Assembly: GCA_031285765.1 (NCBI GenBank)
Contig: JAITVO010000246.1
Coordinates: 1-36,267 of the forward strand
DNA from: Cytophagaceae bacterium
GTDB taxonomy: Bacteria > Bacteroidota > Bacteroidia > Bacteroidales > Marinilabiliaceae
Length of the DNA: 36,267 nucleotides
Direction: 5' to 3'
Positions 9,564-29,647 of this stretch are shown here, one piece after another. The position numbers and the translations under genes are program-made. The stretch's first letter is position 1. Every line of letters begins with the position of its first letter. Under the pieces are notes generated by a model, which worked only from the letters and a program-made list of their open reading frames with translations, was not told where the DNA came from and did not search any database.

Positions 9564-11750
9564 TTAATTCGTAATTGAATTTTTTACCACCTTTACGCTG
9601 CCAACCGCTTTTGTGCCCGAAAACAGGCGAACTATGTAAACGCCGGCGGGCAAGTGGCAGATGTTGACTTCCGTTTTGCCGTTAACCATCTGGGTAAACA
9701 CCTCCCTGCCGCTCATGTTGTAAATTGCGGCTTTGCCCGTGCCATCGTAATCCAAAGTAAAAATACCGTTTGTAGGGTTGGGATACACTTTAATTTCGCT
9801 GTTCGTGATGTGTGTATCGTCTATTCCCACACCATTGTGGTTAATGGTGATGGTGTAGGTTTTTGCGGTGATACCATCGCGGGCGGTTACAGTGATGTCG
9901 AACTCATTGACGCCTGTTTGGAGCACTTTGATGCCCGTGCCTGCAACAGTTGCGGCGGCATCGGTGGCAATGGCGGCAATTACAACAGTCGAAAAATCTA
10001 TCGTGTAGCCAGTAACCGAACTGCTGAATGCAGGCATCAGGTTTGCACTTACCGTTAGGCTTGCAAGCGTGGCATCGGTGTCGGGCGTTTCGCGGATTAC
10101 ATTTACCGTATAGGTTTTGGTAGTGATGCCGTTGGCTGCCGTTACCGTGATGTTGAACCGGTTTTCGCCCACCTCCAACATTTTAACTCCCGTGCCGGCC
10201 ACCGTTGCAGCGGCATTGCTGGCAGTGGCGGCAATATAAACGGCGGTAAGGCTGTTGGCGGCTTCGGCTGTGTAGTCGGTAACCGTGCTGCCAAAGGCAG
10301 GGGCAAGCACACAGTCGCTCACTGTGAGGCTTGCGAGCGTGGCATCTTCGTTGGGATTAACATCGTGCTTCCGGGTTATGTTTACCGTGTAGGTTTTGGT
10401 GGTAACTCCATCCTGCGCCGTAACGGTAATGTCGAACAGGTTGGCTCCCATTTGCAGCGCTTTGGCTCCCGTACCGGCAACCGTTGCAGCGGCATGGCTG
10501 GCAGTGGCGGTAATGTAAACGGCGGTAATGCTGCTGGCAACTTCTGCTGCGTAGCCGGTAACCGCGCTGTTGAAAGCAGGTGCAAGCACACAGTCGCTCA
10601 CCGTGAGGTCGGCAAGCGTGGCTTGGGTGCTGTACCCTTCGCGAACTATCCTCACCGTATAGGTTTTGGTGGTAATGCCATCTTCGGCAGTTACAGCAAT
10701 GTTGAACACATTTTCGCCAATTTGCAGCGGGTGGGCGCCTGCACCGGCAACTGTTGCTGCGGCATCGCTGGCTGTAGCGGCAATGTTGACGGCTGCAACG
10801 CTGTTTACCACATTAACGGTGTAGCTGGTAATTGCGCTGTTAAAGGCAGGTGTAAGCACGCCATTGCTTACCGCGAGGCTGGCAAGTGTGGCATCGGTGC
10901 TGGGTTGTTTGTTTACGCATATTTCGTTGCCAAACTGGCTTTCGCAGCCTCCACCGGTGGCTTTCACCCTGTAGCAGTACTCCTCGCCATCAACCAAATC
11001 GGTATCGGTGTACTCCATGCCATTTACTGTAGCAAGCAGTTCACCGTTGCGGTACAACTGGTAGGTGTTTGCAATGCCCTGCCATGCAATGGCAAAGCCG
11101 TTGTTGACATCTGTAACGGTTAAGTTTTCGGGCACCAGTGTTTCAATTGCGTAAAAATTTCCATTATTGACATAACTCCAAGCTGATGAACTTTGATAAG
11201 CTGCCACAGAGCTACACGGCACATACACACCTCCGGCAGCAGGGACAGCATTAAATGCTCCATTACTGTGCAGGGAAGGTGGAGTAGTACTTTTACAAAT
11301 AATTGTATCCAGCCAGTAGCAGTAGTAAAAAGCCTTTTCGCCAATACTTGTAACACTGCTTGGGATTGTGATGGATGGTAAATGTATGCAGCTATAAAAA
11401 GAACCAAATCCAATATAAGATACTGTATTGGGAATTGTAACCGATTTCAGTTTTTGACAACCGTTAAAAGCATTTGCACCAATATTCGTAGCGCCTTCTT
11501 CAATAATTACACGCCTTATTCGTTCTCTGTAATTTTTCCATGGAATATAATCAGAATTAGTAGAATCATACATGCCCCCCCTGCCACTGATGGCGAGCGT
11601 GCTGTCGCTGGTGAGTTTCCATGTAAGATTAGCGCCACTATAGCCACAGTTGCCTGATGCAATAACAGACTGGGCGTGTGTAGCTGTGCCGGTTACTGCT
11701 GCAAAAAGGAGCAGCAAAACCGTTTTTTGTAATAAAAATGAACACTTCAT
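9564..11750 (-). CDS. BspA-like LRR_5 secreted protein with four cadherin-like beta-sandwich repeats and T9SS type A C-terminal sorting domain
   Basis: Signal peptide; LRR_5 (GANAFNGCQKLKSVTIPNTVSYIGFGSFYSC); 4x DATLASLxVSxGVLxPAFxSxVTxYT...GITTKTYTVxI; C-terminal IKVYPNPTNGIFTLDY...VNICHLPAGVYIVRL. Confidence 0.93.
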   Translation of the reverse strand: MKCSFLLQKTVLLLLFAAVTGTATHAQSVIASGNCGYSGANLTWKLTSDSTLAISGRGGMYDSTNSDYIPWKNYRERIRRVIIEEGATNIGANAFNGCQKLKSVTIPNTVSYIGFGSFYSCIHLPSITIPSSVTSIGEKAFYYCYWLDTIICKSTTPPSLHSNGAFNAVPAAGGVYVPCSSVAAYQSSSAWSYVNNGNFYAIETLVPENLTVTDVNNGFAIAWQGIANTYQLYRNGELLATVNGMEYTDTDLVDGEEYCYRVKATGGGCESQFGNEICVNKQPSTDATLASLAVSNGVLTPAFNSAITSYTVNVVNSVAAVNIAATASDAAATVAGAGAHPLQIGENVFNIAVTAEDGITTKTYTVRIVREGYSTQATLADLTVSDCVLAPAFNSAVTGYAAEVASSITAVYITATASHAAATVAGTGAKALQMGANLFDITVTAQDGVTTKTYTVNITRKHDVNPNEDATLASLTVSDCVLAPAFGSTVTDYTAEAANSLTAVYIAATASNAAATVAGTGVKMLEVGENRFNITVTAANGITTKTYTVNVIRETPDTDATLASLTVSANLMPAFSSSVTGYTIDFSTVVIAAIATDAAATVAGTGIKVLQTGVNEFDITVTARDGITAKTYTITINHNGVGIDDTHITNSEIKVYPNPTNGIFTLDYDGTGKAAIYNMSGREVFTQMVNGKTEVNICHLPAGVYIVRLFSGTKAVGSVKVVKNSITN

Positions 11751-13592: not shown

Positions 13593-13717
13593 TATACTCA
13601 AACAAAAATGGTTTGCAAATAACAGTGGATTCCAGTTTTAACTGTTCAGTTTATTTATTGACAAGGGGATTAATCCCCTTGTTGCTTTTATTCGCAAATC
13701 AATTCTGTTTGAGTATA
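13593..13717 (-). repeat. MITE-like family 1, copy 1 (reverse orientation)
   Basis: Ends TATACTCAAACAAAAATGGTTTGCAAATAACAG / CTTTTATTCGCAAATCAATTCTGTTTGAGTATA; central palindrome CAAGGGGATTAATCCCCTTG. Confidence 0.9.
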
Positions 13718-15003: not shown

Positions 15004-15129
15004 TATACTTAAACAGCATTGATTTGCGAATAAAAGCAACAAGGGGATTAATCCCCTTGTCAATAAATAAAACTGAACAGTTAAAACTGAAATCCTCTAT
15101 TATTTGCAAACCATTTTTATGTGAGTATA
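15004..15129 (+). repeat. MITE-like family 1, copy 2
   Basis: TATACTTAAACAGCATTGATTTGCGAATAAAAGC ... GCAAACCATTTTTATGTGAGTATA with CAAGGGGATTAATCCCCTTG. Confidence 0.9.
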
Positions 15130-15235
15130 ATTACATTGCGTACCGACGGGCTAAAACTTTCAACTCTCCATCCTTTGAAGTGATGGCTTGTTACTTCTAT
15201 CAAACTATCTGTTCTCAACCGTCAACTCTTTTTAG

Positions 15236-25749: not shown

Positions 25750-26277
25750 ATGGAAAAAATAAGTTTAATGCACATTGAAACGCTGCTTGGCGTGATGGTT
25801 GCCTGCGCAACGCAGCAAGGTTTATGTATGCTGGAGTTTACAGACAGGAAAAAAATTGACTGGCAAATCGTAAGTCTAAAAACAATATTGCAAAACAACA
25901 ATATTGTTGAGGACGAAACGCCCATACTGACTGCATTAAAGTGCGAGATGGCGGAGTACTTTGCAGGTAAACGGCAGCAGTTTTCTGTACCGCTACATTT
26001 TGCGGGCACCAATTTTCAGAAAAAGGTATGGACTGCATTGCTGCAAATTCCTTTCGGGGAAACCACTTCGTACATGCAACTGGCAGAAACCATCGGCGAC
26101 GGTGCAAAATATGTACGGGCTGTGGCAAATGCCAATGCAGCCAATAAAATTGCTATCGTGGTACCGTGTCATCGCGTTATTGGCTCCGATGGTTCGCTAA
26201 CGGGGTATGCGGGCGGTTTGCACCGTAAAAACTGGCTTCTGAATCATGAAGACAGCAAGCAGAAATTATTTTTGTAA
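25750..26277 (+). CDS. ogt: Methylated-DNA--[protein]-cysteine S-methyltransferase
   Basis: Active site VVPCHRVIGSDGSLTGYAGGLHRKNWLLNHE; FQKKVWTALLQIPFGETTSY. Confidence 0.95.
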   Translation: MEKISLMHIETLLGVMVACATQQGLCMLEFTDRKKIDWQIVSLKTILQNNNIVEDETPILTALKCEMAEYFAGKRQQFSVPLHFAGTNFQKKVWTALLQIPFGETTSYMQLAETIGDGAKYVRAVANANAANKIAIVVPCHRVIGSDGSLTGYAGGLHRKNWLLNHEDSKQKLFL

Positions 26278-26430: not shown

Positions 26431-26556
26431 TATACTCAAACAGAATTGATTTGCGAATAAAAGCAACAAGGGGATTAATCCCCTTGTCAATAAATAAAAC
26501 TGAACAGTTAAAACTGGAATTCTCTGTTATTTGCAAACCATTTTTGTTTGAGTATA
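26431..26556 (+). repeat. MITE-like family 1, copy 4
   Basis: TATACTCAAACAGAATTGATTTGCGAATAAAAGC ... GCAAACCATTTTTGTTTGAGTATA with CAAGGGGATTAATCCCCTTG. Confidence 0.92.
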
Positions 26557-26759
26557 AAAACAACGGTAATGAAATAAGATGCCTCAATCCTCTCCGTCGG
26601 CTGAAGCCCAAATCACTATTCCTATCTTCCGAAGATGCCCATTTAACTAATCAATCAATTGTAGCTACACGCCCACAAGTTTTTGCAGGCGTTTTTATTT
26701 AAGTAAGCGATGCTACACAACAGATATTTTTTAACAGCAAACTCATTCCATTCAAAAGA

Positions 26760-27179
26760 AAAATATTTCCTACAAAGGAAGTTTTTTTTCCTACAAAGGA
26801 AATATTATTTTCTATAAGCCAAATATGTTTTTCTATAATCGAATTATGTTTTTATACAAATGAAATATGTTTTTCTACAAACGAAGCATGCTTTTCTATA
26901 AATGAAATATGTTTTTATATAAGCAAAGTATGTTTTTATACAAATGAAATATTTTTTTCTACAAACGAAGTGCGTTTTTCTATAAATGAAGTATGTTTTT
27001 CTATAAATGAAATATGTTTTTCTATAAATGAAATATGTTTTTCTATAAATGAAATATGTTTTTCTATAAGCGAAATATGTTTTTCTATAAATGAAATATG
27101 TTTTTCTATAAGCGAAGTATGTTTTTCTACAAATAAAATATTCTTTTCTACAAAATAAATATTCTTTTTTACAAAGTAA
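26760..27179. repeat. 20 consecutive 21-bp tandem units, consensus ATATGTTTTTCTATAAATGAA
   Basis: Manual segmentation gives exactly 20 x 21 bp with substitutions but no indels. Confidence 0.95.
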
Positions 27180-27237
27180 ATGTGTTCCATTTAATACACT
27201 GATTGAAATGGATGAATATAATGCCGCTGTGTAACAT

Positions 27238-27499
27238 CAATAAGTAAGTGTGCGAGCGAGAGTAATTAATCCATATTATTTATTGATGTTACGCATTCCG
27301 ATAGGAAATAGAGTTCGGCATTAGCCAATGTATCGCTTGGTAGCGAAGCAATCGTACCAAAAAGTGCAGCATCCTGTTAAGGATGCTGCACTAATAGGAT
27401 ATCCGATTTTCGCACATTGCATTTTCAACCAAGCGACAATCCTTAGCAGGATTTAGACAATCAAAAATAATATGAATTAATTTTGATCACTTACTTAAT
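27238..27499. repeat. ~260 bp nested inverted-repeat element (possible MITE)
   Basis: Ends AATAAGTAAGTG ... CACTTACTTAAT; internal hairpin GTGCAGCATCC TGTTAA GGATGCTGCAC; CGCTTGGT ... ACCAAGCG. Confidence 0.55.
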
Positions 27500-27517
27500 A
27501 CTCCCTTTTTGGTATTT

Positions 27518-29647
27518 CTACTTTTTTTCAGGCTTCGGCAGCAACACTTTGCGCGACAGTTTAAGTTTGCCTGTGCGGGAGTCGATTTCCAGCAACTGAA
27601 CATCAATAACATCGCCTTCTTTTAACACGTCTTCCACTTTTTCGATACGACGGTGGTCGATTTCGGAAACGTGGAGCAAGCCGTCTTTGCCGGGCAGTAT
27701 TTCGATGAATGCGCCAAAGGGCATAATCGATTTTACTTTGCCTGTGTAAACTTTGCCTACTTCGGGAATGGCAACAATGGCGTTGATGCGTTCGAGCGCC
27801 TTGTCAATTGACTCTTTGTTGTCAGCCGAAATATCCACAATGCCATAATTTCCTTCTTCGGTGATAGCAATAACGGTGCCCGATGTACTCTGTATGTCCT
27901 GAATAATTTTTCCGCCTGGTCCGATTACTGCGCCAATCATCTCTTTCGGGATGCGAATAGTTACAATTCGCGGAGCGTGCGGCTTGTAGTCTTCGCGCGG
28001 CTCGGCAAGTGTTTCGAGTATTTTTCCAAGAATGTGCATACGCCCCTCTTTAGCTTGGTTCAATGCCTTTTCGAGGATTTCGTACGAAAGTCCGTCCACT
28101 TTGATGTCCATTTGAGTAGCCGTAATTCCGTTTACAGTGCCAGTTACCTTAAAGTCCATGTCGCCAAGATGGTCTTCGTCGCCAAGAATATCGGAAAGCA
28201 CAACGTATTGACCTGTTTTGGTATCGCTAATCAAACCCATTGCGATTCCCGAAACGGGACGCTTGATTTTGATACCCGAATCCATCAGCGCAAGCGTACC
28301 TGCGCAAACAGTTGCCATCGACGACGAGCCGTTCGATTCCAAAATATCGGAAACGACACGTACAACGTAAGGATTTTCGTCGGGCATCATGGGTTTGAGT
28401 GCTCTAAGGGCAAGGTTTCCGTGTCCGATTTCGCGACGACCCGTGCCGCGATACGGACGCGCTTCGCCTGTCGAAAACGGCGGGAAATTATAATGAAGCA
28501 AAAAGCGGTCGAAACTTTTATTCAATACATCGTCAATCATTTTTTCGTCCAACTTTGTACCCAGCGTAACGGTGGTGAGCGATTGCGTTTCGCCGCGTGT
28601 AAAAATTGCCGAACCGTGAGCTCCCGGTAAATAATCTACTTCGCACCAAATTGGGCGGATTTCGTTCATCTTTCTGCCGTCGAGGCGGATGCCATCGTCG
28701 AGCATCAGTCGTCGAACTGCTTCTTTTTCTACGTCGTGATAATATTTGTTAATCAGTTCGGTTGGAATCTCGTTCTCTTCAACGCTTTCGTAGTTGGTTG
28801 CCACAAACTCGTCCTTTATGGCTTTAAACGAATCGGAACGCTCGTGTTTGTTGGCATTTCCTTTGGCGGCAACAGCATACACCTTGTCGTAAGTTTCTTT
28901 CCACACCTTTTCGCGAAGTTCTTCGTCGTTTTCTTCGTGGCAATATTCGCGTTTTACGGTTTTACCAACCAACTCGGCAAGTTCCAACTGAATTTTACAA
29001 TGACTCTTGATGGCTTCGTGAGCAACCTTCATGGCTTCGAGCAGTTCGGCTTCCGAAACTTCGTTCATTTCGCCTTCAACCATCATAATATTATCGTACG
29101 ATGCGCCCACCATAATGTCCAAATCGGCAGTTTTGAGTTCCGAAAGCGTGGGATTTACAACGAATTTGCCGTTGATGCGGGCAACTCGAACTTCGGAAAT
29201 AGGTCCGTTAAACGGAATGTCGGAAACAGCCAGCGCAGCACTTGCTGCAAGCCCAGCCAGCGCATCGGGCGTACTCTCTTTATCGGCAGAAATCAGGTTG
29301 ATATTCACAAAAACTTCTGCATGAAAATCGTCGGGAAACAGCGGACGCAAAGCTCTATCCACTAATCGCGAAACCAGAATTTCGTAGTCCGACGGCTTTG
29401 CTTCTCTCTTTTGGAAACCTCCGGGGAATCGTCCCGCAGCAGCATATTTTTCTTTGTACTCGACCGATAGCGGCATAAAATCGGTTCCGGGCTTTGCTTC
29501 CTGCGCCGCCACAACGGTAGCAAGCAGATAGGTGTTACCCATGCGTACCACCACTGAGCCATCAGCCTGTTTTGCAAGTTTGCCTGTTTCGATTACGATT
29601 GACCTTCCATCGCCGAGGTCAATTACTTTTTCAATTGGTTTAATCAT
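27518..29647 (-). CDS. pnp: Polyribonucleotide nucleotidyltransferase
   Basis: 709 aa; tandem RNase PH domains ([33 protein letters not shown]), KH domain ([16 protein letters not shown]), S1 domain ([28 protein letters not shown]). Confidence 0.98.

Follow-up and report, generated by a model that had tools for sequence, protein, structure and literature searches.

The 21-bp tandem array analysed here is the interior of a transposable element, which the initial annotation had missed. The array lies in the window, a 36,267-bp stretch of DNA from a Cytophagaceae bacterium. We hold it likely, with a probability of roughly 0.82, that the array is a passenger minisatellite in an old, non-autonomous, IS701-derived element inserted between ogt and pnp. 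A defined mobile element thereby replaces earlier readings of this locus as a cryptic gene or a curvature signal. The relevant features are:

25750-26277, plus strand: flanking gene ogt/mgt, O6-methylguanine DNA methyltransferase (PF01035, 2.7e-33)
26700-26706, no strand: left target-site duplication TAAGTAA, identical to 27241-27247
26707-27240, no strand: array-carrying miniature transposable element (MITE) of 534 bp, with inverted ends and an exact 7-bp target duplication
26707-26719, plus strand: left terminal inverted repeat GCGATGCTACACA, matching CT[CG]ATGTTACGCA at 9 of 13 positions
26765-27184, no strand: minisatellite, 20 units of 21 bp, consensus TTTTTCTATAAATGAAATATG
26936-27190, minus strand: open frame across the array (84 aa, heptads), judged spurious (no codon signal; Pfam matches below the cut-off only)
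27228-27240, minus strand: right terminal inverted repeat, reverse complement TTGATGTTACACA, matching CT[CG]ATGTTACGCA at 11 of 13 positions
27241-27247, no strand: right target-site duplication TAAGTAA, copy of the left one
27518-29647, minus strand: flanking gene pnp, polynucleotide phosphorylase (PF01138, 9.7e-60; PF00575; PF00013)

The two flanking genes are convergent, with the array in between. The end motif, CT[CG]ATGTTACGCA, was derived from other arrays of the same genome and then applied to the window, where the right end reads TGTGTAACATCAA on the forward strand and finishes at 27240. Decay has left 4 mismatches in the left 13-bp end of the element and 2 in the right one, so the case for membership in the MITE family depends on the ends combined with the 7-bp duplication. 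A qualifying end pair with duplication arose with none of 3000 permuted end motifs and at none of 420 random placements, the window itself set apart. The element is short and carries no transposase. Bidirectional promoter activity characterises BrickBuilt-type elements, discussed below; the Bacteroidetes −7 box is TAnnTTTG, and no such motif was found inside the element.

The ends recur in the source genome, with 211 exact copies of the 13-bp end sequence against 0 for its reversed control. Elements bounded by them measure 59-993 bp, some with arrays and some without. A blind search of 384 kb for end pairs CT[CG]ATGTTACGCA with an exact 7-bp duplication returned three elements only, all array-bearing, duplicating TAATTAA, ATAATAA and TTAAAAT. 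Besides the window's own, seven array-bearing elements with the same ends were present in the sampled DNA. Sister elements include:

Contig C9: 21-bp unit, 21 copies, duplication TTATTCA/TTATTAA with one mismatch
Contig C145: 21-bp unit, 11 copies, duplication TCTATAA
Contig C104: 41-bp unit, duplication TGAATAA
Contig C37: 42-bp unit, duplication TAACTAA

One 41-bp unit family occupies three loci with three different target duplications (ATAATAA, TTAAAAT and TGAATAA); ends and array therefore moved together. Of the arrays examined, only 8 lie between two such ends, and many others do not or stop at contig breaks. The window array itself was not seen to have moved. A search for same-unit arrays elsewhere in the genome, proposed in the initial annotation, found none, and IMG/VR contigs, phage records and 84,980 species genomes, collections that may omit records of the source genome, gave no further array of this unit. 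Weak matches in genomes G001, G034, G035 and G040 were set aside as AT-rich chance similarity or short pieces. Separately, a 21-bp array family with unit TTTTTGCATTGCTTCACGACG is found on contigs C62, C159 and C228, with a right flank common to the first two; no IS701-type end pair was found around these arrays, which possibly have another mobile carrier.

The window element has the ends of an insertion sequence of the IS701 family. A complete copy in a Parabeggiatoa genome (L329) is 1146 bp long, has the same ends with TCAATAA on both sides, and encodes a 358-aa transposase that scores 340 bits against NF049921 (IS701 family; cut-off 250). The window element shares the ends and the 7-bp duplication of this full copy and differs from it in having no transposase. 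As an IS701-type MITE, it has parent-like ends, a 7-bp duplication and membership in a short, non-autonomous, multicopy family. Transposase remnants lie beside the same ends in the source genome itself (contigs C90, C360, C276 and C309). One IS701 remnant came to light on one contig during a check of transposases with PF01609; these IS5/IS4-type transposases of the genome were rejected as the parent, none being flanked by a pair of these ends. Classical IS701 makes 4-bp target duplications, so the 7-bp-duplicating insertion sequence appears to represent a distinct IS701 subgroup.

When named genomes were scanned for pairs of ends facing each other, 89 loci in many phyla were recovered. Among the short end pairs at these loci, the exact duplication was 7 bp long in 26 of the 33 cases that had any exact duplication. 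An IS701-type end present in Bacteroidota, Planctomycetes, Thiotrichales, Methylococcaceae, Chloroflexi and others is now linked to minisatellite dispersal. The end pair ATGTTACGCA...TGCGTAACAT is also seen as mini-elements of 50-85 bp with 7-bp duplications (L227-L315), hosted by termite-gut Bacteroidota, Planctomycetes, Opitutaceae, Beggiatoa relatives, Methylococcaceae and Chloroflexi.

Within the element, the twenty 21-bp units with zero indels described in the initial annotation were recovered in the register 26765-27184, with unit length constant throughout; the earlier frame, 26760-27179, differs from it only by a 5-bp shift, and the unit substitutions listed for it are present. TRF reported a period of 21, 18 copies, 82% matches, 0% indels and a score of 446, and autocorrelation reached 0.82, 0.81 and 0.79 at lags 21, 42 and 63. 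Nine of the 21 unit columns are invariant (TTT at 2-4, TA at 7-8, AA at 10-11 and AA at 15-16). Changes from the consensus, 38 transitions and 20 transversions, peak at 7 and 6 in the edge units and fall to 0 in the centre. Block-wise duplication of several units at once was not significant (225 of 2000 unit-order permutations). Rfam returned only miRNA-family matches, all sub-threshold, which we take as chance. Zero indels are not peculiar to this array, as 30 of 34 same-class arrays of the genome also show 0% indels by TRF.

These observations are best explained by the following history. An element with 13-bp ends would have inserted between the convergent ogt and pnp genes and produced the 7-bp target duplication. 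In its gene-free interior, a segment of about 21 bp would have been duplicated many times, either before or after insertion. The tract would then have gained and lost whole units through slippage or unequal exchange, which would keep the exact length while substitutions accumulated, mostly in the outer units. The data directly show where the element begins and ends, its end family, its parent insertion sequence, the joint movement of ends and arrays in sister elements and the lack of a coding signal; from these we infer both that the array grew by one of these two routes and that it has no sequence-specific function in the host.

Against this absence of function, the nine AT columns stay invariant in all units, the strongly diverged outer ones included, which might be due to a binding constraint and not to neutral evolution. 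The units might accordingly be iterated protein-binding sites, with a dimer on each imperfect-dyad unit (TTT..TA.AA...AA, centre at position 9) and 21-bp spacing placing the dimers cooperatively on one helical face, as a partition site, regulator sink or nucleoid anchor. The partial dyad symmetry of the invariant columns and the exact 21-bp spacing would suit such a role. However, the unit sequence was found only here in the genome and collections searched, the units of sister arrays are unrelated, and the 23-bp units (7 of 34 arrays) would leave helical phase within a few units. Partition and replication genes were also absent among the neighbours examined, and we consider binding sites of this kind improbable. 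With regard to plasmid iterons, no replication initiator was found among the 20 window ORFs scanned, a subset of the total, and the immediate neighbours are ogt and pnp.

A second alternative is that helically phased T-tracts were selected for curvature, for example as a supercoil apex or an insulator between the convergent genes. We assessed curvature with a wedge model, for which the ratio of end-to-end to contour length was 0.50-0.64 in phased A-tracts and 0.94 in random DNA. For the array the model predicts 0.66, whereas the window averages 0.93; this puts the array at the 0.4th percentile, among the most bent 0.4% of the window. Column permutation of the units gave an equal bend in only 3% of versions, so that the array exceeds 97% of these controls. 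The strong bend expected earlier from the T-tracts is thus upheld as a prediction, but the genome's other 21-23 bp arrays are mostly unbent (0.75-0.99), although they keep length just as strictly. Curvature is therefore not the explanation of unit length. Because the other same-class arrays lack T-tracts and are for the most part predicted to be nearly straight, the bend of the window array is probably a by-product of its own unit's composition. Helical phase as a strict length rule is further weakened by the 23-bp arrays. Many T5/21-bp arrays of the order resemble coding coiled-coil repeats, so the pattern is not diagnostic, and selection for curvature seems to us very unlikely. Matches to the T5-N16 pattern occur in 62 of 295 genomes of the order; we rejected the T-tract as a common element, these matches being a mix of AT-rich noise, coding coiled coils and unrelated non-coding arrays.

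The weakest alternative, to which we give almost no credence, is that the minus strand, or the plus strand despite its lack of a start, encodes a short protein of coiled-coil or heptad-repeat type. Both proposed frames exist: the plus strand is open from 26703 to 27158 with about 19 [IV]CFS[IT]NE-type heptads and no ATG, and the minus strand holds an ATG ORF of 84 aa with regular [KH][IT]SFIEK-type heptads (26936-27190). Coding 21-bp heptads do occur in other genomes of the order. Yet the ratio of synonymous to non-synonymous substitutions from the consensus unit agrees with expectation in all six frames, and stop-creating changes exceed expectation in both proposed frames (4 observed against 1.0 expected, and 6 against 1.9, the latter on the minus strand). 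A family search with the heptad ORFs gave no match above cut-off (the best Pfam match of the minus-strand ORF being Prefoldin_3, at 22.6 bits against 23.4), no homologue was found, and the ORF is located within a MITE. A 21-bp unit stays in frame automatically, and stop-free units are common by chance. The array is non-coding, and the reading as a cryptic heptapeptide repeat is not supported.

The real puzzle is the repeat length, rather than curvature or a hidden protein. We ran an array census with TRF (period 13-90) on 599 kb of the source genome, a draft of 372 contigs with an estimated completeness of 90%. Genome-wide figures given here come from about 600 kb of sampled stretches, and array copy numbers may be wrong because arrays of this draft are often at contig ends. 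Gene content and the named genomes that share the ends point to a Bacteroidales-type host. The census found 36 arrays, with periods of 21 (17 arrays), 22 (2), 23 (7), 41 (3), 42 (5), 69 (1) and 84 (1). Units of 21, 22, 23, 41 or 42 bp thus make up 34 of the 36, and the single 69-bp array lies inside a long ORF. Unit sequences belong to at least a dozen unrelated families. The strict conservation of length remarked on earlier therefore extends to the genome scale, where length rather than sequence is kept. A first sample showed this pattern and a second confirmed it, although many contigs of the second were chosen for carrying the end motif. Similarity at lag 21 is raised in most 42-bp arrays and in the 84-bp array, which look like dimers and a tetramer of a unit of about 21 bp, and is not raised in the 41-bp family.

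The length peak is not due to reading frame because 22, 23 and 41, all of them found among sister units, are not multiples of 3. The same peak appears in six genomes from other families of the order that were picked for their 21-bp T-tract arrays (19 of 28 arrays). In 20 same-family genomes it is absent (0 of 4 arrays), and a set of mixed loci totalling 628 kb has a broad period spectrum with 4 of 21 arrays in the peak; the peak is therefore not an artefact of TRF. Several unrelated non-coding 21-bp arrays were observed in genomes of other families of the order (G036, contig C351; G081, C3; G174, C146; G062, C8), sometimes with two arrays within 1 kb. Shared length without shared sequence offers a testable clue to the birth of bacterial minisatellites. 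As a tentative and rather doubtful possibility, some Bacteroidales genomes may have a sequence-independent process that duplicates DNA in tandem by a fixed length of about two helical turns (21-23 bp), with 42 and 84 bp as dimers and tetramers and with transposable elements spreading part of what is produced. Opposite-strand nicks two turns apart followed by fill-in could underlie it, as could slippage gauged by a DNA-bound protein.

Porphyromonas gingivalis belongs to the same order as the host. The closest known case comes from this species: BrickBuilt is a 23-nt minisatellite inside a MITE, with the unit AGAYCATARTATCCTCTCRTRTG and IS5-type ends (Klein et al., 2015; PMC4596501). Like BrickBuilt, the window element consists of intergenic, spacer-less tandem repeats in a gene-less element with inverted ends, which are shared with an insertion sequence, and copy number is variable. 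In contrast, its unit (TTTTTCTATAAATGAAATATG) is 21 bp long and unrelated in sequence, its ends are IS701-type with a 7-bp duplication rather than IS5-type, and the source genome has many different arrays inside one end family. The window element is thus a different element of BrickBuilt-like architecture. P. gingivalis also has 464/PgRS, with 41-nt repeats in a MITE (discussed in PMC4596501). Its unit is about twice 21 bp, and the source genome likewise has 41-bp arrays in MITEs, whereas the ends differ and no shared sequence is known. That lengths of about 21-23 and 41 turn up in both genomes is suggestive, and the length pattern may be relevant to the P. gingivalis repeats of 22, 23 and 41 nt as well.

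Other repeats were observed in the window. A dispersed repeat at 27263-27500, with copies at 80-82% identity on contigs C24 and C30, contains an IS701-type end motif (exact core ATGTTACGCA at 27286), the other end of which was not found. A second MITE family of about 127-130 bp is bounded by perfect ends, TATACTCAAACA...TGTTTGAGTATA, and has a GGGGATTAATCCCC hairpin in its interior; the sampled part of the genome contains more than 20 copies that are 92-98% identical, three of them in the window (26431-26557, 13593-13717 and 15004-15130). Finally, a 270-bp repeat in 2.6 copies lies at 10195-10902, within a secreted LRR/cadherin-like protein with a Por secretion tail.
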